Assembly: GCA_015232315.1 (NCBI GenBank)
Contig: JADFZZ010000016.1
Span: forward strand, 1-64,000
Direction: 5' to 3'
DNA: 64,000 nucleotides
Source: SAR324 cluster bacterium
GTDB taxonomy: Bacteria; SAR324; NAC60-12
The notes beneath the pieces are model-generated. The model was given only the letters and a program-made list of their open reading frames with translations, was not told the origin of the DNA and did not search any database. Positions 722-26,692 of this stretch are shown here, piece by piece. A program made the position numbers and the translations under genes. Numbering within the stretch: the first letter of the stretch is position 1; every line of letters begins with the position of its first letter.

Positions 722-1555
722 TTATATATTCCATGTTCCTTTTCTTAAGAAAATTCTTTGAAAAAGGAATGGGTGATTATTACTGTCTACTAACTCCCAA
801 AATTTTAAAGATATAGATTTCAGTTCATTTTTCCTGACACAAATAGAAATTAAATCATGTGATAAATGATTGAAAAGACAGAACTGCCATTGAGCAGGCG
901 ATTCTTTGATATTTTTACCAAAAGACAAATCAATGAGCGAATCCTCAGCGGATATATCAAAAATCACATCGCTTAGAGGGAATGCGATGCCGGTTCCGAG
1001 CGCTTTGAGAAAAGATTCTTTGAGTGTCCAATAGCTGAAAAATCGTATTGCTTGTGAGGGTTCAGGTAAGCGGAAAATACTTTCCATTTCACTTGGTGCA
1101 TAGAATCTTTTTGCAATCCCTTCAAGATGGATGCTGCGAGTATAATTCTCAATATCTATCCCAATTTCATGATTTCTGGATATTCCACAGACAATCACGT
1201 TGTTTGTATGAGACAGATTGAACTCAAGCGTATAATCAGGTGGTTGGTATTTTGCTGAAAGTGAGGGTTTCCCATATTTGTTTTTGATAAATTGAAGAGC
1301 TTGGGGAGTGTTACCTAAATAATCACTTAGTAGTTTTCTGACAAAACCACGTGTAACCAGATACCGGATTTTTAATGAATCCAAGCTGAAACGATCATAT
1401 TGAGAAAGTTCCTCCGGACTTAACCATGTATAAAACTGTCTAAGGGTTGCTTCTGAATAATGATCAACACTGGTTTGCCAGAAATGGATTTCTTCTGGTT
1501 GGATTGAGATCGTATGGGGAGATTCAGACAATGAAAACATCCAATAGGTGATCAA
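722..1555 (-). CDS. Sfp/AcpT-type 4'-phosphopantetheinyl transferase
   Basis: Transfers phosphopantetheine from CoA to a serine of carrier proteins. The family signatures are visible: FNLSHT near residue 112, GIDIEN with the Mg-binding D134 and E136, and WTLKESFLKA near 177-186 with K179 and E180. Length (277) fits a single Sfp-like protein. The longest frame starts at TTG 1555 and overlaps the kinase stop by 4 bases (TTGA). ATG at 1540 (residue 6) is equally possible, and neither has a good ribosome binding site. It is the last gene of the minus-strand cluster. Its carrier partner is unknown; FabY upstream in the cluster and the carrier at 41022 are only suggestive. Confidence 0.88.
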   Translation of the reverse strand: MITYWMFSLSESPHTISIQPEEIHFWQTSVDHYSEATLRQFYTWLSPEELSQYDRFSLDSLKIRYLVTRGFVRKLLSDYLGNTPQALQFIKNKYGKPSLSAKYQPPDYTLEFNLSHTNNVIVCGISRNHEIGIDIENYTRSIHLEGIAKRFYAPSEMESIFRLPEPSQAIRFFSYWTLKESFLKALGTGIAFPLSDVIFDISAEDSLIDLSFGKNIKESPAQWQFCLFNHLSHDLISICVRKNELKSISLKFWELVDSNNHPFLFQRIFLRKGTWNI

Positions 1556-4500
1556 TCAAAGAAATAATGGAATGAAGTGATTTTTTCAGTTTTTGGTTTA
1601 TCAGGAGAGATATTTACAAAGGCAATGACTTCAGTTTTAATTCCTGATTTAACATTCATCACGACCAGATCAGATTTTTCCATTATCTGGAATAAGCCTC
1701 GTCCAGCTCCGCCTTTACCCTTCTCAAGATTAATGCTACCAGCTTCACCGCGATAACAACTGTCCAGATAATCCAATACAATTTGTCTACTCAATGCTCC
1801 AAAGGGGTCTTCGCAGGAAATTGCGACAAGAATCCCATCACAGGCATAACGGAAAGTTCCTTGTTCTTCAGGTTTAAGTGCAACAGGAATGGTTCTGGGG
1901 AGATGATTGTAAATCGGTTTTCCAGCGGAATCATGGGGTGCATCATAAATAGCATTCATCAGTAACTCTTCTGCTATCATGGTGCAGTGAGTTAAAAATG
2001 ATTTACGGATTCCCAATTGTTGAAAATAATCAGTCATAGATTCCACCAACAGACCTCTAGAATCACTGTCTGTTACGGTTTCTTGATGAACTTCAACACC
2101 CCAGTTGAGATATTTTTCCATTCCAAAAAAATCCTTGCTGAGCAGTTTACTGACTGTTGTGATAATATTTTTTATAGTAAAAGTTCGATCTTCCTCACTG
2201 GTGGAAACAATATTCGAAAGAAAAGGATACTGACGGAGAATCGGTAGATAATCCTGAGCTTTTGCAGAGGTTGTAAACACTGTAGCAATTTCAGGGTTTT
2301 TGGTGTGAGCATATTTTGCGAGATCAATCAGGTCTGCATTGGTATAAATTATATCATAAGATTGTTGTTCCAGTTGTTCTTTACCTGATTCATAGTCAGA
2401 CACAATATCCAGTTCAACACCAGTTCCCCGCAAAGCCATTTTAGCCAAAATCTGTTGTTTTTTATTGGTTTCCATTAGAAGCAGGCGTTTGCTTTTGATC
2501 GCCTTTTCTGTTCGGTGCATTGCTGTGACGGGTTGCAGGACATGCTCAATCTGAAACAAATGACGCTCCAACGCACTGAGATGATCCTGATAGCTTTCAA
2601 TGGGATCCTGCTTCATTTGTTCCAAATGCTTTTGCATCCCACCAAGATCATCTTCATACAAATGACTCAGTTTTTCAAGAAGTTGAGCTTTGATATGACT
2701 GAGGTCTTCGAGTTTTCGATTACTGGCCAACAGTGTAGTGTTCTGTTGTTCTACTTGTTGTAACGATTCATTAAGCTGCTGGGTGCGTTCCTGAACTTTT
2801 TGCTCAAGATTAGTATACAATGACGCATTTTCGATAGAAATGGAGGCCTGCGTCGCCATAATTTTTAAAACTTCCAGGCGATTTGGCGTGAAGGCGCCAG
2901 TTGTGAGATTGTTTTCGAGATAAATAATCCCGTTGAGGAGATTTCTATTTTTAATGGGCAAAGACAGTAGCGATCGTACTTGATTTTCTTGAATATAGGG
3001 CAAGTCTTCAAATTTTGAATTTCCAACAGCATCATCCAGCAGGACATGTTCCTTGGTTCTTATCACATATTTCACAATTGGTAATGGTAGCATTTCATTG
3101 GCCATGTCTGATTCCAACGGAATGGCTAATTCGACAGAGTCCTTTGACACGTGGAGATCAATCATCGCATCGATACTCCACTCCCCCTGTCGATGAACCA
3201 GAAAGAAACTACGTTGTGATCCAGTATTTTCCATAACAATCTGCATGATTTTTCGCAGAACAGCATTTAAGTATACTTCACCGGTAATGGCCTGGGTTGC
3301 CTTTATGATCGCGGTCAAATCAAGATTGGTGGAAAATGAAGTCGATAGGGTCGTATTTTGTTGTAGTGTTCCAGTGACTGTTTGAGAAAGGGTGCCAGAT
3401 TTTTTTCTGGAATTCAGTAATTGTGGAAAATGCCTGTCCAGAAATTCACATTTGTTATCAGCGCCCCATAAATGATATAGATGTCGTCCCTTGGTCAAAT
3501 AAAGTTGTCCAACCTCAGGTTCTGCTTGTTCCATCCAGAATTTCCCGAATAGTTCATTAGCCAATGCTTCATCCTGAATATAACCATACTTACGGGAATA
3601 TTCGATAGACAGGTTATAAAACTGTCGAGCCCGACTCTCTTTGCGTGAACATCGAGCTCGTTCAGCTTCGATCAGGTAGTATTTGTGCAGAAAATTGGCT
3701 GGAGCATTATCAGCCCATTTTTTCATTTTTTTCTGGTTGTCTGCTACTTCCTTGAGCAATCGGGCTCGTTTTAATGCAGTGACCTGAGACAGCGATGCCA
3801 AAATAATCAGTGAATTATGAAAATTATACAATGTGACTGAATATAATGCTGTTACACTATCGAGATATTTTTTGGTTTCGCTGGTATATTCCAACGCTTT
3901 GGCAAAATCATAAAAGTGATAACACAGAAAAGCTCTGTTCAGTTGCAAGGTAAACAGCCCCGTATAGTTCTGGGTATCAAGATATTTCTGTTCTTTTTCG
4001 ATAGCATTAAAAGTTGGACTGATCAATTGTTCAGGATGTGGTCCGGGAATACTCAAATTTTTAAAAGCCAGTGAGGAGATCTCCATGTATTCAATCGCCG
4101 CGGATTGCTTAAGCTGGATTAGTTCTTCAATATATTGTTCAAATGTCTGAATCAGTTCTGGCAGATTCTTTCCGGAAAAATACTCATGATTGGCATGCAG
4201 GCTGGCGATATAACCGGCATATTCCAGATCACCCGCAAACAAACTCTGATAATAGGCATCTTTCAGTGGAGAAATCGTGTCGACAATCGGGTGTTTCCAG
4301 ATACGGATAAATGCATGGATGAGAAAATGAATTCGTGCTTCAAGTTGCGGTAATGGATATTTGTTCAATAGATGCAGTGACAATTCCACAAACTTCTGGC
4401 CTTGATCAAATTCTTCAAGAATTCCACAAAGCAGTAAAGCATAGTCGCAATAGGCCAATGAAGATAAAGGCGCATTTCCATATTCTAAGGAGAGATCAAC

Positions 4501-7263
4501 CTGTTTGAGGATCAGTAGCGGATATAGTGGTGGGAATGCAATATATGTAGCTGAAAATATCGTGTTGATCAGACGTAAGGCCGCCAATTTTTCAGGGTCT
4601 CGCATCGGTGGCAGTGCCATTAGATCATCCATTGATTTATGGAATAGACGTCGTTTGACTTTCAACAGGGACAACGCGGCATGAAGTTTAGTAGGATTTT
4701 TTGGAAAAGAGATACCAAGCTGAGTTAGGACCGATAGGGCCAGTTTAATGGCTTCTCTGAATTGATTCTGACTGATCAATCCTTCAATTTTATTTTCATA
4801 AACCGAAATTTTTTCCAGGAGTGTTTTTGCGTGTTCGAGCACTTTAGCGGTGTGAAACTCCATGCGCTCATAATCAGGACTCAGACGTGCGGCTGTGGCT
4901 GCTGCGGTATGCAAGTCCAGGCTGAAGCGATAATGGGAACTCCATGAATTATCAGGCAATAAGGAAACAGCGGTTTCAAACAGTTGCTCTGCTTCTTGAA
5001 AAGCCGCGGTCTGCATTGCATTCTGACCTGCTTCAAAGTTCAGTTGTGCGGCAATTTCTGTTTCTTTAGTTGAGGTACTTTCGGATATGCCCGCATTGAA
5101 ATGATTAACAATTTCAAAAATTCGAGATTCTTTTTCTTTCGGTGAAAGATTTTGCACCAGAAATTGCCCTATTTTGAGATGAATTTTTGCGGCTTCGCTC
5201 ACATTCATCAGAGAATATGCCGTTTGTTGAATTCTTGAATGGGTGAAGGCGCATGTCTTATTGGAACAATCATGTTCTTCTGCGGTTTCCCGGGATACCA
5301 ATTCATGGATGAAATCATGCTCAACCAGATCGTTCAACATTTGTTGAATAACTTTGTGATCAATCCCGGTGGTATGATGGAGTATTTCAACACTGAAATC
5401 CGTCCCCTGACAGGCGGCATGTTTTAAAATCAGTTGATGGGTTTCATCCTGCTGATTGATGTTCTCAATCATAAGACTGATGACATTATCAGTAAATTCC
5501 TGTTTTTGAATTTCTTCCAGATTCCATTTCCATTTTTGATTAGAATCGTCATACCACACAAAGCCACAGCCCTGAAGCGCCTCAACAAATTGTGCCAGAA
5601 AAAATGGAGTTCCTCCTGTTTTATGGTGGCAGGTTTCTGCTAAGTCGATCACCTCAGCGGTTTCCATGGAAAAAACATCGCCTAGTATTTCTGCGACATT
5701 CTCTATAGTCAGATGCGATAATTTAAGCGCATAGAAGGCTTTATTCTGACATTTTTTGAGATCATTGAGCAGTCGTTCCACCTGCCTTGAATGTGAAATC
5801 TCTCCATCAATCGTCCCAACAATGAGCAAATATTTCATTTCAGGGGAACTCATCCAGTTTTCAATCAGGCTGGCGGAAGCGTCATCAATAAGATGCAGAT
5901 TGTCGATAAAGATCACTACAGGATTATCAACAGTAGCAATGACACTGAGAAACTGCCGGAAAACGTAATGGAGTCGATTCTGGGACTCAATGGGGGGCAA
6001 GGTTGGCACAGATGGTTGTTTGTCAATCAGGTGTTCCAAATCTGGAAGCAGATCAATCAACACCTTCCCATTTCCATGCAAGGCATCCAAACAGCGCTGT
6101 TTCCAGAAACTCACATGAACTTCATCTTCACTCAGAATACTCTGAAGAAACTCTGTAAGCGCTTCAATGATGGTAGAATAGGGAATATTCTGATTGGATG
6201 GATGTGGATCACTGTGTAAACAAGTAGCCTGATTTTCTCTTAAATAAAATTCGATGTCATGAATAAATGTTGTTTTTCCTGAACCGGAATGTCCTTCAAT
6301 CAACAAAAACGTTTTGTCTCCATCACATATGCGCTGGAAATGACTGATAACCTCCTGGCGTTCTGAGTGGCGACCATAGTGCTTATCAGGAAATTTCAGT
6401 TCTTTGCGTGAGGACATCTGGGCAAGTTCAAATTCGACAATAGTCCCGGAAAGTTTCCATTGGGTCAGACATTCATTCAGGTCCGTTAACAGGCTGGCTG
6501 CACTGGGATAGCGCTGATCCATGGATTTTTCCATGAGTTTCAAAATAATCTTTGAAATGATAACAGGAATTTCAGGAATCAGTTCATGTGGAGGAACAGG
6601 ATCTTTGGCAAGATGCCCATGAATGATTTCCGCTTCATCGCCCTCAAAGGGGATTCGATGAGTAAGTAGATGATAAAACGTCGCACCCAGTGCATAAAGA
6701 TCACTGCGGTTATCCATTTTCAGGTTGGTTCTCCCGGTCTGTTCAGGCGGGAGGTAGGCCAACGTTCCTTCAAAAACATCAATCTGATCGGGAAGATCAT
6801 CGATGTAGTCAGATATTCCGAAATCGACAATTCTGATTTCCTTTGCTTCCGCATTCCATAAAATATTGGAGGGATTCAGATCTTTGTGAAGTATACGGAG
6901 ATCATGAATTTGTTGGAGAATATTCGAAATGTTCACGCCGATTTCCAAAAAATCGGGAATGGACATGGATTGTTGCTCCAGGTAGTCTGCCAGGGAAATA
7001 CCACTGAATTCTTCCAGAACCATTGCCAGTGAATTTTTATATTTTTCCAGAGCGTAAGCTTGAATGACACCTTTGATGTTCAGACTGCTTAACAGTTCAA
7101 ATTCTGTTTTGAAATGTTGAATTTGTTCAGGAAGAGGATATTCGACATTCAGAATTTTTAACGTAACAGGAAGATTGTCCGCTTCACGAATCGCATGAAA
7201 TACATGGGTTCTGTCGCTTTTATACAAAGGCTCCATGATTTTGTATCCAATCATCTGAACCAT
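1552..7263 (-). CDS. Multidomain Ser/Thr kinase - ATPase - GAF - HATPase sensor
   Basis: A 1903-residue cytoplasmic signalling protein. Residues 1-270 are a Ser/Thr kinase: Lys36, the HKDLNPSN catalytic loop at 126-133, DFG at 147-149, and PPEQ in the activation segment. Residues 295-560 are an AAA/MalT-like ATPase with P-loop GHSGSGKT (324-331) and a Walker B-like VIFIDN. About 700-1290 is a helical TPR-like region, about 1320-1485 a GAF domain followed by a coiled coil. Next comes a receiver-like segment lacking obvious acidic residues, and a C-terminal HATPase with N-box EELLMNAIYDA and G-box GKGGAGRG. No clear phosphoacceptor His box was found. Start ATG 7263 has an upstream AAAAGGA. The layout resembles cyanobacterial-type fused Ser/Thr-His kinases, but the ATPase looks closer to the RsbW class. 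Confidence 0.88.
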   Translation of the reverse strand: MVQMIGYKIMEPLYKSDRTHVFHAIREADNLPVTLKILNVEYPLPEQIQHFKTEFELLSSLNIKGVIQAYALEKYKNSLAMVLEEFSGISLADYLEQQSMSIPDFLEIGVNISNILQQIHDLRILHKDLNPSNILWNAEAKEIRIVDFGISDYIDDLPDQIDVFEGTLAYLPPEQTGRTNLKMDNRSDLYALGATFYHLLTHRIPFEGDEAEIIHGHLAKDPVPPHELIPEIPVIISKIILKLMEKSMDQRYPSAASLLTDLNECLTQWKLSGTIVEFELAQMSSRKELKFPDKHYGRHSERQEVISHFQRICDGDKTFLLIEGHSGSGKTTFIHDIEFYLRENQATCLHSDPHPSNQNIPYSTIIEALTEFLQSILSEDEVHVSFWKQRCLDALHGNGKVLIDLLPDLEHLIDKQPSVPTLPPIESQNRLHYVFRQFLSVIATVDNPVVIFIDNLHLIDDASASLIENWMSSPEMKYLLIVGTIDGEISHSRQVERLLNDLKKCQNKAFYALKLSHLTIENVAEILGDVFSMETAEVIDLAETCHHKTGGTPFFLAQFVEALQGCGFVWYDDSNQKWKWNLEEIQKQEFTDNVISLMIENINQQDETHQLILKHAACQGTDFSVEILHHTTGIDHKVIQQMLNDLVEHDFIHELVSRETAEEHDCSNKTCAFTHSRIQQTAYSLMNVSEAAKIHLKIGQFLVQNLSPKEKESRIFEIVNHFNAGISESTSTKETEIAAQLNFEAGQNAMQTAAFQEAEQLFETAVSLLPDNSWSSHYRFSLDLHTAAATAARLSPDYERMEFHTAKVLEHAKTLLEKISVYENKIEGLISQNQFREAIKLALSVLTQLGISFPKNPTKLHAALSLLKVKRRLFHKSMDDLMALPPMRDPEKLAALRLINTIFSATYIAFPPLYPLLILKQVDLSLEYGNAPLSSLAYCDYALLLCGILEEFDQGQKFVELSLHLLNKYPLPQLEARIHFLIHAFIRIWKHPIVDTISPLKDAYYQSLFAGDLEYAGYIASLHANHEYFSGKNLPELIQTFEQYIEELIQLKQSAAIEYMEISSLAFKNLSIPGPHPEQLISPTFNAIEKEQKYLDTQNYTGLFTLQLNRAFLCYHFYDFAKALEYTSETKKYLDSVTALYSVTLYNFHNSLIILASLSQVTALKRARLLKEVADNQKKMKKWADNAPANFLHKYYLIEAERARCSRKESRARQFYNLSIEYSRKYGYIQDEALANELFGKFWMEQAEPEVGQLYLTKGRHLYHLWGADNKCEFLDRHFPQLLNSRKKSGTLSQTVTGTLQQNTTLSTSFSTNLDLTAIIKATQAITGEVYLNAVLRKIMQIVMENTGSQRSFFLVHRQGEWSIDAMIDLHVSKDSVELAIPLESDMANEMLPLPIVKYVIRTKEHVLLDDAVGNSKFEDLPYIQENQVRSLLSLPIKNRNLLNGIIYLENNLTTGAFTPNRLEVLKIMATQASISIENASLYTNLEQKVQERTQQLNESLQQVEQQNTTLLASNRKLEDLSHIKAQLLEKLSHLYEDDLGGMQKHLEQMKQDPIESYQDHLSALERHLFQIEHVLQPVTAMHRTEKAIKSKRLLLMETNKKQQILAKMALRGTGVELDIVSDYESGKEQLEQQSYDIIYTNADLIDLAKYAHTKNPEIATVFTTSAKAQDYLPILRQYPFLSNIVSTSEEDRTFTIKNIITTVSKLLSKDFFGMEKYLNWGVEVHQETVTDSDSRGLLVESMTDYFQQLGIRKSFLTHCTMIAEELLMNAIYDAPHDSAGKPIYNHLPRTIPVALKPEEQGTFRYACDGILVAISCEDPFGALSRQIVLDYLDSCYRGEAGSINLEKGKGGAGRGLFQIMEKSDLVVMNVKSGIKTEVIAFVNISPDKPKTEKITSFHYFFD

Positions 7264-7485: not shown

Positions 7486-8283
7486 TTATTCAAAATTATG
7501 CCGCTTCCAGCGATAGGGCGAATCCGTAATCACGCCCGGTTCTGTGGCTGTTTCCATGAGTTTGAGGCAATCCTCAACAATTTGTTGTTGTTGACGGACC
7601 TTACGGAGTTCTCCCAATGCATGGCCAAAAGGATATTTCAAATGATAGGTTCGGGGGGGCTTTACCTTTTCACTGATCGAACGAGCAATGGAGATTCCCA
7701 CAGTAGTGATTCCCTGATGTTCCAGTTCACGTTGTACCAGACCGACCGTCTGGTTGCACAAACCTCAGGCAGGAACCAGCAGGGCAATATCGACAGATTC
7801 CTGTTTCATCTGTTTTGCCAAAACTTTAGCGGTTTTTTTGACCAGTGTGTCCAGATGCTGTCCTTCAATGTGTCCCATCAATCCATAGAAATGATCGGCT
7901 AATTGACCAATTCGCCCTTCCTGTTGAAAACCTCTGACAATTTCGATCGGTAGGACCAGATTGATATCCTGATCCGCATCTTTGTGGTCAAAATAATCAT
8001 GTGTAATCATCAATTGCTCGATAGCGATAGTTGAGGGGATTTTACGATAAGAAGGGTCTCCCTCAGGATCACTCATGTTGAAGGGTGGATCTGTTTTAAG
8101 GTGGACTCCGCCGGTTGTAATGAGTGCGAGTTTGCATTGGGACAGCGGTTTGGACAATGGCGTCCAGGGGATGCTGTCTGATTCCAGGGCGTTGTATTGA
8201 CTGGTCCAGCGTTCTTTGACCCAGGGGATTTGGAAAAGACTGACAAAAATTTTGTTTTTGAATTTATCCCAACCTGTTTTCAT
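7486..8283 (-). CDS. GrdB-like selenoprotein (in-frame UGA = Sec173)
   Basis: Selenoprotein B family of glycine/sarcosine/betaine reductases, about 265 residues. The frame from ATG 8283 reaches a UGA at 7765-7767 and continues in the same frame for 92 more codons to 7486. The flanks read LLVPA-U-GLCNQTVGLVQREL, and U-x-x-C followed by (H/N)QTVGL is the family redox motif. A SECIS-type hairpin follows the UGA. Both halves are needed to make one family-length protein, so this is not a pseudogene or two genes. The catalysed reaction is unknown: no GrdA, GrdC or thioredoxin partners are nearby. It sits between the kinase and fabY on the same strand. No SelA/SelB/SelC gene is in the window. Confidence 0.88.
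7736..7754 (-). promoter_or_regulatory. Bacterial SECIS hairpin after the UGA codon
   Basis: On the coding (minus) strand a perfect 7-bp stem ACCAGAC/GTCTGGT encloses loop GGTCG. It starts 10 nt after the UGA, and the loop starts 17 nt after it. In E. coli fdhF the SelB-binding loop (AGGUCU) lies at nearly the same distance, and GGUC in the loop is the recognised feature. The match in stem, loop and spacing strongly supports selenocysteine insertion. Confidence 0.82.
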
Positions 8284-8333: not shown

Positions 8334-10247
8334 TCAGTTTTTGGGGCTGATCTCAGCATAAGGATCTGGTATATCCAGGGAAACCGGATGCGTGTATCCG
8401 GGGATGTGAATGGCCTCTCGACTGATGTTCAGCATGTCGCCCTCAAGGACATTTTTTCCAAAAATATAAGTTGGGGTGATTTCCCCCTGAAGTGCCCGTT
8501 GATCATAATCCGCAATGGATTGCTCCGCCTGTTCAAGGTGTTTGCGATATTCTTTGAAACGGGATTCTCCATAACGTTTTTTCAGCATCTGATGGACTAT
8601 GTGCGGCGCCAACACCGCACTGCTTGCGTTGTTTCCGCCAAATCCCTTGGAGTTGATCACCACTGCGTCCATTCCATTGATACCAGCGAACTGGTGTTCC
8701 TGTTCCAACTTCAGATTGGAACGATGCACATCATCGGCAATCTGGTCCAGGGTGAAAATTCCGGGAATCCAGCCCTCATTCCATGTGCCAAGGGCTGTGG
8801 CCATTTGATCTCCGGCCGCGGTACCCAGGGAGTGTCCTGTGTAACATTTGACCGACGTAACCAGCCAGGAAGGAATGGAAAACGCTTTAGCGATTTCATT
8901 GAGCACATGCGATTCTGTCACACGGTTTTGAGGCGTTCCTGTCCCATGAGCATGCACGTAAGTGCGTTGACTCAATGCGGTATCTCCGAGCATTTTCCGC
9001 AACAATCCTGCTGTTTTTCCAAGACACAGGTAGTTACCGATTCCTGGTGCTGAAATGGATTTTTTAAAACCATCGGCATTGATAAACACTCCGGGTACGG
9101 CTCCATAAATTGGTGCTCCCAACTCCATTGCAAGTTCATCATCCAGCAGAACCAGAAATTGTGCCGATTCCCCCATCACAAATCCGCAATTATTACCAAA
9201 GGGACGACACGCTCTGGGATAATCAGGGACTATTCGTCCCCGGGCCTTGTCCAGTTCCAGCAAATCCTTGTCTTCAGTCAGAGCTTTCATGACACGGAAG
9301 CCCTCAATCACTTCCGGTAAAACAGGTGCTTCACTGGTTCCCACGATCACCGCGCGTCGAATTCCGCTCTGAATATCTCTCACGCCCATTTCAAGGTTAT
9401 ACAGAAAAGAAGCACAGGCCCCAAGGATGCCTGATGTGGCACCAAGATTTCCCAGAACATAGGCATTGATAAAGTCAGCGGGCATTTCCGCAAAACCAAA
9501 CGGGAGTTGTTTTGAGGTTGGGCGAGTGCCAAGATAGGGCGCCTTGAGCATTCCACCATAGCCCTGATCATCAAGCTGACTCATTGCGCTTGACGCATAA
9601 ACGCCAACTTCGTCGGGTTTGATTTTATTGAGAATGGTTTCCCACGGAATCCCACAGGAAGATAAGGCGTCAGAAATACCGAAAATGGTCATCTGGAGTC
9701 CGCGGGGATGCTGACGGGCTGGATACCATTGTTGAGGATTGAAACCTGTGGGGAGTTGACCCGCGGCGTTTACCAACGAAGGTCTGGTTTCAGCCAACAG
9801 AACTCCTGCTGGATTTTTAAGATGAATTTCCAGAATCTCGTTGCCCGTATCATGAATTTCCCACGATGAAGGTACCGTCTCAGGCAGATCTTTCCGTTTG
9901 ATTTGAAATGTGATGCTTTTTTCAGAATTAAGATGAACCGGACGATGAAATGGAATGCCCTGGCCGGGAAATGCCTCGCCGGAAATTTTACGGATCAGGG
10001 TATTTTCCAGAATAAAGGCACGGTATTTTTCTACAATGAACGCTGGTGTGACCGGGGTTCCCTCTTCCAGCCACTGTCCATTCTGATATTCGACTAACCG
10101 CATTTGTGAGGCCAACCCCAACAGGGTTTCCTGTTGTTTATCAGCGGGTAGCACATCCAGAATCATGCGCTGATAACCTCTGGCACAGGAACTGCGTCCT
10201 GCCGCGTTGACTCCTCCATATCCGGCAATAACAGGCAATCGAAACAT
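8334..10247 (-). CDS. fabY: FabY-type beta-ketoacyl-ACP synthase
   Basis: Condensing enzyme of fatty acid synthesis. FabY of Pseudomonas makes acetoacetyl-ACP from acetyl-CoA and malonyl-ACP to start the pathway. The thiolase-fold triad is visible: Cys278 in GACASFLYN, His in HAHGTGT near 430, and the KCYTGHSLG Lys/His segment near 467. A long N-terminal region opens with RLPVIAGYGGVNAAGRSS, and the total of 637 residues matches FabY (about 634) rather than FabF (about 410). The frame is open further upstream, but ATG 10247 is chosen because AGGAGG lies directly before it. It is on the same strand as the selenoprotein gene, with a 50-base gap. Confidence 0.85.
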   Translation of the reverse strand: MFRLPVIAGYGGVNAAGRSSCARGYQRMILDVLPADKQQETLLGLASQMRLVEYQNGQWLEEGTPVTPAFIVEKYRAFILENTLIRKISGEAFPGQGIPFHRPVHLNSEKSITFQIKRKDLPETVPSSWEIHDTGNEILEIHLKNPAGVLLAETRPSLVNAAGQLPTGFNPQQWYPARQHPRGLQMTIFGISDALSSCGIPWETILNKIKPDEVGVYASSAMSQLDDQGYGGMLKAPYLGTRPTSKQLPFGFAEMPADFINAYVLGNLGATSGILGACASFLYNLEMGVRDIQSGIRRAVIVGTSEAPVLPEVIEGFRVMKALTEDKDLLELDKARGRIVPDYPRACRPFGNNCGFVMGESAQFLVLLDDELAMELGAPIYGAVPGVFINADGFKKSISAPGIGNYLCLGKTAGLLRKMLGDTALSQRTYVHAHGTGTPQNRVTESHVLNEIAKAFSIPSWLVTSVKCYTGHSLGTAAGDQMATALGTWNEGWIPGIFTLDQIADDVHRSNLKLEQEHQFAGINGMDAVVINSKGFGGNNASSAVLAPHIVHQMLKKRYGESRFKEYRKHLEQAEQSIADYDQRALQGEITPTYIFGKNVLEGDMLNISREAIHIPGYTHPVSLDIPDPYAEISPKN

Positions 10248-10333
10248 ATTCCTCCTGAAAAACAAGCATTGATATTTTAGCCGGGTTGTATCGGCTTTGA
10301 TTTGCCAGCACAAACTTATTTTTGTTTCAGGGA

Positions 10334-11365
10334 TCAATCGATTTTCATGGAAAGGATTCCACCTTTATCTTTTTGCCAATCCCATGATCCAAAGTAAGTC
10401 CCCAGCCATAAATTCTGTTCAGGAAAGAATCTCATGCCATAAGGAACACCCAGAGATTGAGCTGGTACCAGTTCAACAGTAATATTGTGTCCCAACTGAC
10501 CGGTGACCAGACGTTGTCCCATGATCCATTCGCCCCATATGAATTGATTACCTATGCGTAACATTCCGGTGATATTGGTGTAAGGCAGAGAAAAAATTTC
10601 CTCGGTCATGCCCGACTCAAAATTAGCAATTTTCAGGATATTGGCTCCCTGGCCCTGATTGAGTCCGGGCAAGTTTTCATAACTGTTGGCAATCCAGATT
10701 CCGTCTTCGTCACAGATCAATTGCCGGGCATAGGATATTTTGTGTTGATGGTCTGCAAACACCTGCCAGTCTTTACCATCCATGTCCCTGAAACGAACGA
10801 TTCTGGATTTTTTTGAATCAGCCACATAAATCCAACCGTCTTGAGCAACACAGATTCCATGAGGACCGTGCATGGAGTGGTCCGGTCCATCAAAAGTTTT
10901 CCAACCGTTTCCCTCAAGATCCTTGATTTCAACGATGGCAGAACCCCAGCCATCGCTGAGAAGCAACGTATTCCACGGACTGATTGCCATAAAATGAGGG
11001 TTGTAGAATTTCTGGCCGATACTTTGGGGATCAAAATGGCGCAAGTTGGTGAACTGGAGATCGTCAAAGATTGCCAGTTGATTGTGCATCAGTTCTGTTG
11101 CCACAAATTTGCCTTGAAACCAGATGATGTCTCCAGGATTGAACAGCTCTGGATGGGTCAATTGCTGTTGGCTGATCAGTGATTTTTTTAAACGGTCTCG
11201 AACCCTGTTCTCGCGATATTCCGTGAGAAACTGGTTCATCCGCTCATAGTAGCGCCCAAGTTTGTCAAGCTGATGATAATTGTTGTGTAGAAAACCACCG
11301 ACGAGGATGCCCAGAAAAAATACCCCAAAATTTTTGATTACGATGCTGTTGAATAAAAATTTCAT
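10334..11365 (-). CDS. Membrane-anchored NHL/beta-propeller-like protein
   Basis: About 343 residues. One N-terminal hydrophobic segment (NFGVFFLGILVGGFL, about residues 12-26) should anchor it in the inner membrane with the rest outside the cytoplasm. The body contains recurring propeller-like units with GPHGICVAQDGWIYVADS as the clearest NHL-type repeat, plus HFMAISPWNTLLLSD and similar blades. No catalytic motif is visible, so the role is unknown; binding or scaffolding is typical of such folds. Start ATG 11365 is preferred over a farther in-frame start at 11392, but its ribosome binding site is weak. Confidence 0.7.
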   Translation of the reverse strand: MKFLFNSIVIKNFGVFFLGILVGGFLHNNYHQLDKLGRYYERMNQFLTEYRENRVRDRLKKSLISQQQLTHPELFNPGDIIWFQGKFVATELMHNQLAIFDDLQFTNLRHFDPQSIGQKFYNPHFMAISPWNTLLLSDGWGSAIVEIKDLEGNGWKTFDGPDHSMHGPHGICVAQDGWIYVADSKKSRIVRFRDMDGKDWQVFADHQHKISYARQLICDEDGIWIANSYENLPGLNQGQGANILKIANFESGMTEEIFSLPYTNITGMLRIGNQFIWGEWIMGQRLVTGQLGHNITVELVPAQSLGVPYGMRFFPEQNLWLGTYFGSWDWQKDKGGILSMKID

Positions 11366-24433: not shown

Positions 24434-26692
24434 ATGTCCTGGTCCTATCAACTGTTTACAAAACTGAGAGAAAAATCACCTGATTCCAGGCTGGTAAAAT
24501 CTCTCGAAAAAATATTTCCACTGCAACGAGTGAAAACTCCGACCGTTTTACAAATGGAGGCTGTGGAGTGTGGGGCCGCCGCATTGGCGATTGTACTGGG
24601 CTATCATGGCAGAATCATGCCCTTGGAAGAATTGCGTATTGCCTGTGGCGTTTCACGGGATGGAATTCGTGCGGACAACATTCTGAAAGCCGCCAGAAAA
24701 TTTGGCATGATCGCCAAAGGCTACAAACAGGAACCTGAGGATCTTCGCAAGTTTTCGTTGCCAATGATCATTTTTTGGAATTTCAATCACTTTGTGGTGC
24801 TGGAAGGGTTTGGCGCAGACCGGTTTTATATCAACGATCCTGCCAGTGGCCCCAGAGTGGTGACTACCAAAGAATTTGATGAATCCTTCACCGGTGTCAT
24901 CCTGGTCTTTGAAAAAGGTCCGGAATTCACGCCAGCCGGAGACAAACCCAATCTGCTTCAATCACTGCGGAAACGACTGATCGGTTCAGAATCCGCTTTG
25001 ACCTATGTGGTCTGGGCCGGCTTGGCGTTGGTTATTCCCGGTTTGGTTGTTCCTACATTCACCAAGGTGTTTGTCGATGAAATCCTGATCGGAGGCATGG
25101 ATGACTGGCTGAAACCCTTGTTACTGGGAATGTTGATCACAGCGCTTTTTCGGGGAGGACTGCTTTGGTTACAGAAATATTTTTTACTGCGCTTTGAAAT
25201 GAAGTTGTCCCTGAGTTCTTCCAGCCAATTTTTCTGGCATGTACTCCGATTGCCCATTGAGTTTTTTCAGCAACGTTTTGCTGGTGAAGTAGGGTCCCGT
25301 ATCGCAATCAACGACAAGGTCGCCAATCTCCTTTCAGGTCAACTCGCATCCAACATTCTGGATGTGGTGATGATCGCGTTCTTTTTAATCCTGATGATTC
25401 AGTATGATGTCGGGCTTACTTTCATTGGAATCGGTATTGCGTTGATCAATATTCTGTTTTTAAGATTTGTCGCGCGCAAACGGATAGATTCCAGCCGTAA
25501 ATTATTGCAGGATCGTGGGAAAATGATTGGATTTTCGATGGCGGGATTGGGCAATATTGAAACCATCAAAGCCACAGGCGGCGAGTCGGATTTTTTTGCG
25601 CAGTGGTCAGGATATCACACCAAGGTCATCAATGGTGAACAGAAACTGGGGGTGTCCTCCGAATATCTTGGCGCAGTGCCACCATTGCTCACCACATTGA
25701 ACAATATCGCGATTTTATCTTTTGGTGGTTTGAGAGTGATGAATGGGGAATTGAGTATAGGGATGCTGGTTGCGTTTCAGAGTTTGATGGCCAGTTTTAT
25801 CGGGCCGGTCAATAATCTGGTCAGCTTTGGGGGGTTGTTACAGGAACTGGAAGGAGACATGAACAGGCTGGATGATGTGTGGCGTTACCAGAAAGATCCT
25901 CAATTTCATCATATCGAAGTGAATGAACCAGATTCTGAACAAAAACTCCGTGATGATGAGAGTCAGACCAAACTCACCGGACACATTGAATTACGGAATG
26001 TTACCTTTGGGTACAGCAAAATGGGCGAGGCACTGATCAAGGATTTCAACCTCACATTGGAACCCGGAAATCGAGTGGCGCTGGTGGGACCTTCCGGATG
26101 TGGAAAGTCAACAGTGGCAAGATTGGTGGCAGGTTTATTCAATCCGTGGAATGGTGAAATATTGTTTGATGGCAAATCCCGTTATGACATTCCCAGAGCT
26201 GTGATCAACAATTCATTGTCCATGGTGGATCAGGATATTTTCATGTTTGAAGGAACAATTTATGAAAATCTCACCATGTGGGACCGCACCATTCCTGAAT
26301 CCCGGGTTCATCGGGCCGCCCGGGATGTCGGCATGCACGAATTCATTTCAACCCGCCCCAATGGCTATGAAAGCATGATTGAAGGCATGGGACACAATTT
26401 CAGTGGTGGCCAACGTCAACTCCTGGAAATCGCCAGAGCCCTGATCATTGATCCCACCATCCTGATTCTGGATGAAGCAACCAGCGCCCTTGATCCCAAA
26501 ACCGAAAAATTTGTGGATGACAACCTGCGACGTCGCGGATGCACCTGTCTGATTGTGGCACACCGCCTGAGTACGATCCGTGATTGTGATGAAATTCTGG
26601 TGATGCAAGGCGGGAAAGTGATGCAACGCGGCACTCATGAAGAAATGAGCCAGGAAGATGGTCCCTATTCCAGGTTGATCAAGGCGGAGTGA
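24434..26692 (+). CDS. NHLM-type peptidase-containing ABC transporter (PCAT)
   Basis: Cleaves double-glycine-type leaders and exports the peptide. Residues 35-155 form a C39 peptidase with Cys in MEAVECGAAALAI, His in FWNFNHFVVLEGF and Asp in INDPASGPR. TM helices follow (about 195-470), then the ATPase with Walker A GPSGCGKS, signature FSGGQRQLLEIARAL and Walker B ILILDEATSALD. The total of 752 residues is full length and all catalytic residues are present. The companion second ABC protein often found in NHLM loci is missing, and no precursor peptide is adjacent. Confidence 0.9.
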   Translation: MSWSYQLFTKLREKSPDSRLVKSLEKIFPLQRVKTPTVLQMEAVECGAAALAIVLGYHGRIMPLEELRIACGVSRDGIRADNILKAARKFGMIAKGYKQEPEDLRKFSLPMIIFWNFNHFVVLEGFGADRFYINDPASGPRVVTTKEFDESFTGVILVFEKGPEFTPAGDKPNLLQSLRKRLIGSESALTYVVWAGLALVIPGLVVPTFTKVFVDEILIGGMDDWLKPLLLGMLITALFRGGLLWLQKYFLLRFEMKLSLSSSSQFFWHVLRLPIEFFQQRFAGEVGSRIAINDKVANLLSGQLASNILDVVMIAFFLILMIQYDVGLTFIGIGIALINILFLRFVARKRIDSSRKLLQDRGKMIGFSMAGLGNIETIKATGGESDFFAQWSGYHTKVINGEQKLGVSSEYLGAVPPLLTTLNNIAILSFGGLRVMNGELSIGMLVAFQSLMASFIGPVNNLVSFGGLLQELEGDMNRLDDVWRYQKDPQFHHIEVNEPDSEQKLRDDESQTKLTGHIELRNVTFGYSKMGEALIKDFNLTLEPGNRVALVGPSGCGKSTVARLVAGLFNPWNGEILFDGKSRYDIPRAVINNSLSMVDQDIFMFEGTIYENLTMWDRTIPESRVHRAARDVGMHEFISTRPNGYESMIEGMGHNFSGGQRQLLEIARALIIDPTILILDEATSALDPKTEKFVDDNLRRRGCTCLIVAHRLSTIRDCDEILVMQGGKVMQRGTHEEMSQEDGPYSRLIKAE

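Follow-up and report, generated by a model that had tools for sequence, protein, structure and literature searches.

Probable selenocysteine decoding at an interrupted reading frame

Does the UGA that interrupts a minus-strand reading frame in this SAR324 contig end a gene or encode selenocysteine (Sec), and what would the uninterrupted protein do? The window, meaning the whole 64,000-nt stretch analysed, lies on contig C16 of a 5.25 Mb metagenome-assembled genome (MAG, 95% complete) whose relatives belong to the SAR324 cluster/Lambdaproteobacteria. With a probability of roughly 0.93, sequence comparison points to one 265-residue selenoprotein of the PrdB/GrdB family (PF07355) that would carry Sec at UGA-173, inserted by means of a downstream hairpin, and would probably act without a PrdA/GrdE partner. 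The central point, that the internal UGA is read as Sec, is almost certainly correct on the comparative evidence presented below.

The frame begins with an ATG at 8283, meets the TGA at 7765–7767 and stays open to a TAA at 7486. Translated with TGA as U, this gives 172 residues, Sec and a further 92, 265 in total, with the motif U173-G-L-C176. Both the coordinates of the UGA and its place within U-G-L-C, as given in the original prediction, were borne out by sequence and translation. Plain ORF calling had been expected to return a truncated protein of 172 residues and a fragment of 91, and both ORFs are present (Table 1). The accompanying warning that the gene is easily misread applies to such ORF calling but not to RefSeq, which reads the Sec-containing PrdB of other organisms straight through the UGA. 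Scanned alone against Pfam, the 91-aa ORF matched no family. Residues 174–265 of the full frame align with homologues, and homology continues past the UGA up to the C-terminus at 50–60% identity.

Table 1 Features of the selenoprotein locus, in window coordinates.
Feature	Position	Strand	Basis
PrdB-like selenoprotein CDS	7486..8283	−	ATG to TAA, 265 residues with UGA = Sec; PF07355 and TIGR04483/TIGR01918 matches; alignment with homologues runs through the UGA as far as the C-terminus
In-frame UGA, Sec173 of U-G-L-C	7765..7767	−	UGA at the same site in every SAR324-phylum homologue reaching it; Cys there in Enterococcus, Paraclostridium and Roseomonas
TGC codon, Cys176, candidate resolving cysteine	7756..7758	−	At least 90% conserved in 57 homologues; Asp in the UPLD subgroup
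Bacterial SECIS hairpin	7736..7754	−	5' arm 7748–7754, loop GGTCG 7743–7747, 3' arm 7736–7742; covariation and synonymous freeze
172-aa ORF (ATG), product if the UGA terminated	7765..8283	−	ORF calling
91-aa TTG ORF after the UGA, C-terminal third of the same protein	7486..7761	−	ORF calling

We searched all 52 SAR324-phylum genomes and found a homologue in 45. Every match reaching the site carried exactly one TGA there, the sole exception being a fragment that ended upstream, and a Desulfatitalea homologue also had the UGA, with a compensated hairpin. The proposed comparison with UxxC and CxxC homologues thus returned a UGA kept in SAR324 and Cys at the Sec site in the three other genera listed in Table 1; at the position of the in-frame UGA, homologues have Cys or Sec, as expected of a bacterial selenoprotein gene. 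D106, P112, E188, R211, G220 and the Sec position were invariant among 57 homologues.

Some paralogues carry U-P-L-D (L068:4065–4739, L069:4037–4726, L071:2885–3574, L072:1657–2337) and form one clade (support 99/92). They keep the UGA and the SECIS and have Asp in place of the resolving Cys, which shows that this Cys is dispensable in some relatives, where a different resolving thiol may serve.

Family assignment and partner subunits

The protein matched PF07355 with 52.9 bits (cut-off 22), covering only the C-terminal half of the profile. Its closest named family was PrdB of D-proline reductase (TIGR04483; 173.3 bits, 221 residues aligned), at a score under the equivalog cut-off of 300, whereas annotated PrdB reached 310 and 453 bits. 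The TIGR01918 subfamily model was passed only just (68.9 bits, cut-off 65.45). The original prediction had spoken of a GrdB-like redox motif. The shared domain and Sec motif stand, but the GrdB label does not, as the protein is PrdB-sized, scores 173 bits with TIGR04483 versus 69 with GrdB-type models, and lacks the GrdB N-terminal domain and second Cys. Compared with GrdB, GrdF and GrdH of the glycine, sarcosine and betaine reductases (PF07355, TIGR01917/01918), it shares the C-terminal domain, the Sec motif and a score over the TIGR01918 cut-off. It differs in having no counterpart of the N-terminal ~190 residues (265 aa versus a full length of ~435 aa, with the GrdB-type match limited to profile positions ~199–425), no second Cys of UxxCxxC and no GrdE or GrdA partner.

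Similarity to PrdB is closer, comprising a length of about 240 aa, UGxC, the same domain and 31–37% identity to the annotated PrdB of clostridia and lactobacilli. In the tree, however, the UGxC clade containing the window protein (97/94) was separate from annotated PrdB (90/89); it was also separate from several SAR324 UPxC paralogue clades. A further comparison is provided by Roseomonas WP_207415257.1, a stand-alone Cys-containing 'glycine/sarcosine/betaine reductase selenoprotein B family protein' with the same domain and no prd or grd neighbours. In contrast to the window protein, it has CPVC rather than UGLC, groups with the SAR324 UPVC paralogues and has lost the hairpin.

An AlphaFold2 model (pLDDT 94.2) placed Sec173 in a loop between a strand (166–170) and a helix (176–189). 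Foldseek found no fold match in the PDB at E ≤ 0.001, and a PDB sequence profile search gave weak chance matches only. Separately, the PrdB of Peptoclostridium acidaminophilum (L105:3944–4657) gave a weak match (E 0.0005) to the UGSC selenoprotein family in the region of the Sec motif, a hint that PrdB and that family may share ancestry.

PrdA is the pyruvoyl subunit on which D-proline reductase depends; the glycine-type reductases depend on GrdE and GrdA. The requirement for GrdA and GrdB in glycine-type reductases is also described in PMC13188914. A profile search for PF09338 (PrdA/GrdE) found nothing in this 95% complete genome, which taken alone could still be missing a partner gene, and nothing in 51 of the 52 phylum genomes. 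The single genome with a match (G040) has it adjoining a real GrdB. The validity of the model rests on this match and on E. gilvus PrdA (93 bits), a first search having matched no control genome. GrdA was absent from this genome and was found in the phylum only in G035.

Two observations concern these exceptional genomes themselves: in G040 (L100, C103) the real GrdB, with UGTCxxC, lies next to GrdE, and the GrdA of G035 (L107) contains an in-frame TGA.

No prd or grd genes occurred among the neighbours examined, and neighbours were not conserved between SAR324 genera. Here they comprise a ketosynthase, an NHL protein and a kinase-AAA-GAF protein, which offer no functional clue; elsewhere, by eye, they include YggS, IspG-like and thermonuclease-like genes. 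The ketosynthase-domain protein is unusual (667 aa, 8334–10337); it is encoded on the same strand, 50 nt upstream, and does not accompany the homologues of other SAR324 genera. On the downstream side of the selenoprotein gene, the Ser/Thr kinase-AAA-GAF protein (1903 aa, 722–7263) overlaps a 4'-phosphopantetheinyl transferase gene. Further along the window, a peptidase-C39 ABC transporter (24434–26692) near an outer membrane efflux protein resembles a bacteriocin-type export cluster.

These data bear on whether the protein belongs, as Sec subunit, to a genuine D-proline reductase, in which PrdB would work with pyruvoyl PrdA in Stickland-type proline reduction. The TIGR04483 match, the identity to clostridial and lactobacillar PrdB and the naming of marine homologues as PrdB (PMC1088965, PMC2398784) all favour such a role. 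We nevertheless consider it very unlikely, given a score far under the equivalog cut-off, a clade apart from PrdB, the absence of PF09338 although the model detects both PrdA and GrdE, and the lack of prd neighbours where annotated prdB often adjoins prdA. With neither PrdA/GrdE nor GrdA in the genome, the protein is probably part of neither a D-proline nor a glycine reductase, and together with its neighbourhood this makes it best described as a stand-alone PrdB-like selenoprotein.

Conservation of the hairpin downstream of the UGA

The hairpin ACCAGAC-GGTCG-GTCTGGT (7754–7736, minus strand) starts 10 nt after the UGA, with its loop starting 17 nt after it. Its position, start and GGUC loop were all as originally described, the loop having been likened to that of E. 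coli fdhF. The fdhF SECIS carries a bulged U, and the plain 7-bp stem of the SAR324 hairpin has none. It fits the published model of bacterial SECIS (bSECIS) elements in all four constraints (PMC13188914): loop size and stem length (5 nt and 7 bp), a G within the first two positions of the loop, spacing (17 nt) and energy, with an MFE of −12.5 that lies below the threshold of −7.5 kcal/mol.

On one sequence, the hairpin is statistically not exceptional. Its shuffle z-score was −1.16, all seven pairs also arose in 10% of synonymous recodings of this peptide, and under the same rules an equally good hairpin follows 2.3% of the TGAs in the window. Among the 32 TGAs with open codons on both sides (at least 60 and at least 40), that of Sec173 had by far the best. 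Neither single-sequence folding nor codon shuffling established the hairpin, and neither is used as proof of a SECIS.

Comparison across relatives was decisive. Across 39 distinct aligned sequences, standard pairs made up 96% of pair cells, 52 cells had double-sided changes (14 in shuffles) and 17 further pair types occurred. The covariation score was 0.550 (shuffled, 0.185; reached by 0/500 shuffles) and fell to 0.096 or less when the register was slid by 1–3. Among 30 close homologues, the synonymous diversity ratio of codons 178–182 (QTVGL), beneath the inner hairpin, was 0.21, where the gene as a whole averaged 0.82; of 42 five-codon windows, the two with the lowest ratios sat on the hairpin. 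Over 39 to 61 relatives, seven pairs covary in register, and nowhere else in the gene are synonymous sites as frozen as in the five codons beneath them. This removes the doubt left by the single-sequence tests; the element both fits the bSECIS constraints and is structurally conserved.

The same data address the idea that conservation of the peptide NQTVGL produces the hairpin incidentally, with no RNA signal involved, as the fraction of recodings retaining seven pairs might suggest. Synonymous sites, however, were frozen inside the hairpin and not beside it, and pairing was maintained when the peptide was replaced by QSVGL, HVSVGH, HMSVGH or RSVGL. Nor is the hairpin kept by Cys homologues, with only 4–5 of the 7 pairs present in this register in PrdB of Enterococcus and Paraclostridium (CGTC) and in the Roseomonas protein (CPVC). 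A peptide by-product is thus highly unlikely, and we retain the hairpin as a Sec insertion signal. Sec-containing PrdB of clostridia and Ligilactobacillus had 3–4 of the 7 pairs and does not use this register, which assigns this form of the hairpin to SAR324-type clades. A covariance model of the SECIS (R1) found 7736–7754 as the only site in the genome at E < 1 and no second confident site; it also missed the hairpin of SelD described below and so is not a general detector.

Selenocysteine machinery

The original prediction implied that the organism has Sec machinery and proposed a search for selA, selB, selC and selD, with absence of selB or selC counting against it. All four were found in the genome: SelA (495 bits, cut-off 268), SelB (386.6, cut-off 242), SelD (363.3, cut-off 125) and tRNA-Sec with anticodon UCA (62.4, cut-off 47; tRNA-SeC(tca) in ARAGORN). 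SelB exceeded its cut-off in 48 of the 52 phylum genomes. SelD (C28:50700–51623, minus strand) is itself a UGA selenoprotein, with the in-frame UGA in TCGUAAKL followed by the hairpin TCAGTCC/GGTC/GGACTGG, whose GGUC loop lies 17 nt after the UGA. Loop sequence and spacing are therefore common to two selenoprotein genes of this genome. Our literature search for selenium in SAR324 found only PMC5029168, in which two SAR324 single-cell genomes are listed as 'orphan SelD', and none discussing a PrdB-like protein in this group.

That the UGA is a real stop, produced by a nonsense mutation or assembly error and leaving a pseudogene or two proteins, finds some backing in the two called ORFs and in the 2.3% of TGAs with equally good hairpins, but is scarcely credible given an identical UGA in dozens of independently assembled relatives with a covarying hairpin, purifying constraint on both sides of it and full Sec machinery. 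Homologues with a stop and no hairpin would have spoken against Sec, and those with UGA keep the covarying hairpin. The conserved UGA, the hairpin and the machinery together uphold the selenoprotein reading.

Discussion

In the mechanism we propose, the hairpin 17 nt after UGA-173 would recruit SelB carrying Sec-tRNA-Sec(UCA), and Sec would be inserted at this codon, so that the mature protein would present Sec173-Gly-Leu-Cys176 in a loop at the start of the helix after a beta strand. Family and motif suggest as the likeliest chemistry that the selenolate attacks or reduces a small-molecule substrate, after which a Sec173–Cys176 selenenylsulfide would form and be reset by a thioredoxin-type dithiol. 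The protein may thus work like the Sec subunit of proline and glycine reductases but without the pyruvoyl partner PrdA/GrdE, probably alone or with an unrelated partner and on a different substrate. A redox role is the likeliest on these grounds, and the UPLD subgroup, having no resolving Cys, counts against it.

The SAR324 gene is one more member of an already known marine family. Sec-containing 'proline reductase PrdB' genes numbered 42 in the Sargasso Sea selenoproteome of 2005 (PMC1088965) and 235 in the GOS selenoproteome (PMC2398784), and Sec-UxxC 'PrdB' ranks among the most abundant marine selenoprotein families reported since 2005. The SAR324 protein matches the published features of this family, namely pfam07355 with UxxC, a Sec form commoner than the Cys form and occurrence in marine bacteria. 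The difference is that D-proline reduction was assigned there by homology, whereas here the partner subunit was searched for and found absent. This evidence for a missing partner is what the present analysis adds, and it makes the name 'proline reductase' probably wrong for the SAR324 clade.

Our data confirm that SAR324, a marine group of wide distribution, includes a Sec-decoding lineage; gene callers that stop at UGA will cut such proteins. The data also indicate that, with the partner required for D-proline reduction absent, the functional name given to one of the commonest marine selenoprotein families is misleading. It seems reasonably likely that the marine 'proline reductase PrdB', at least in SAR324, would be a separate stand-alone family of Sec-dependent reductases with a substrate of its own. 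Most SAR324 genomes would carry several paralogous forms of this family, including the UPLD form that has dispensed with the resolving Cys.
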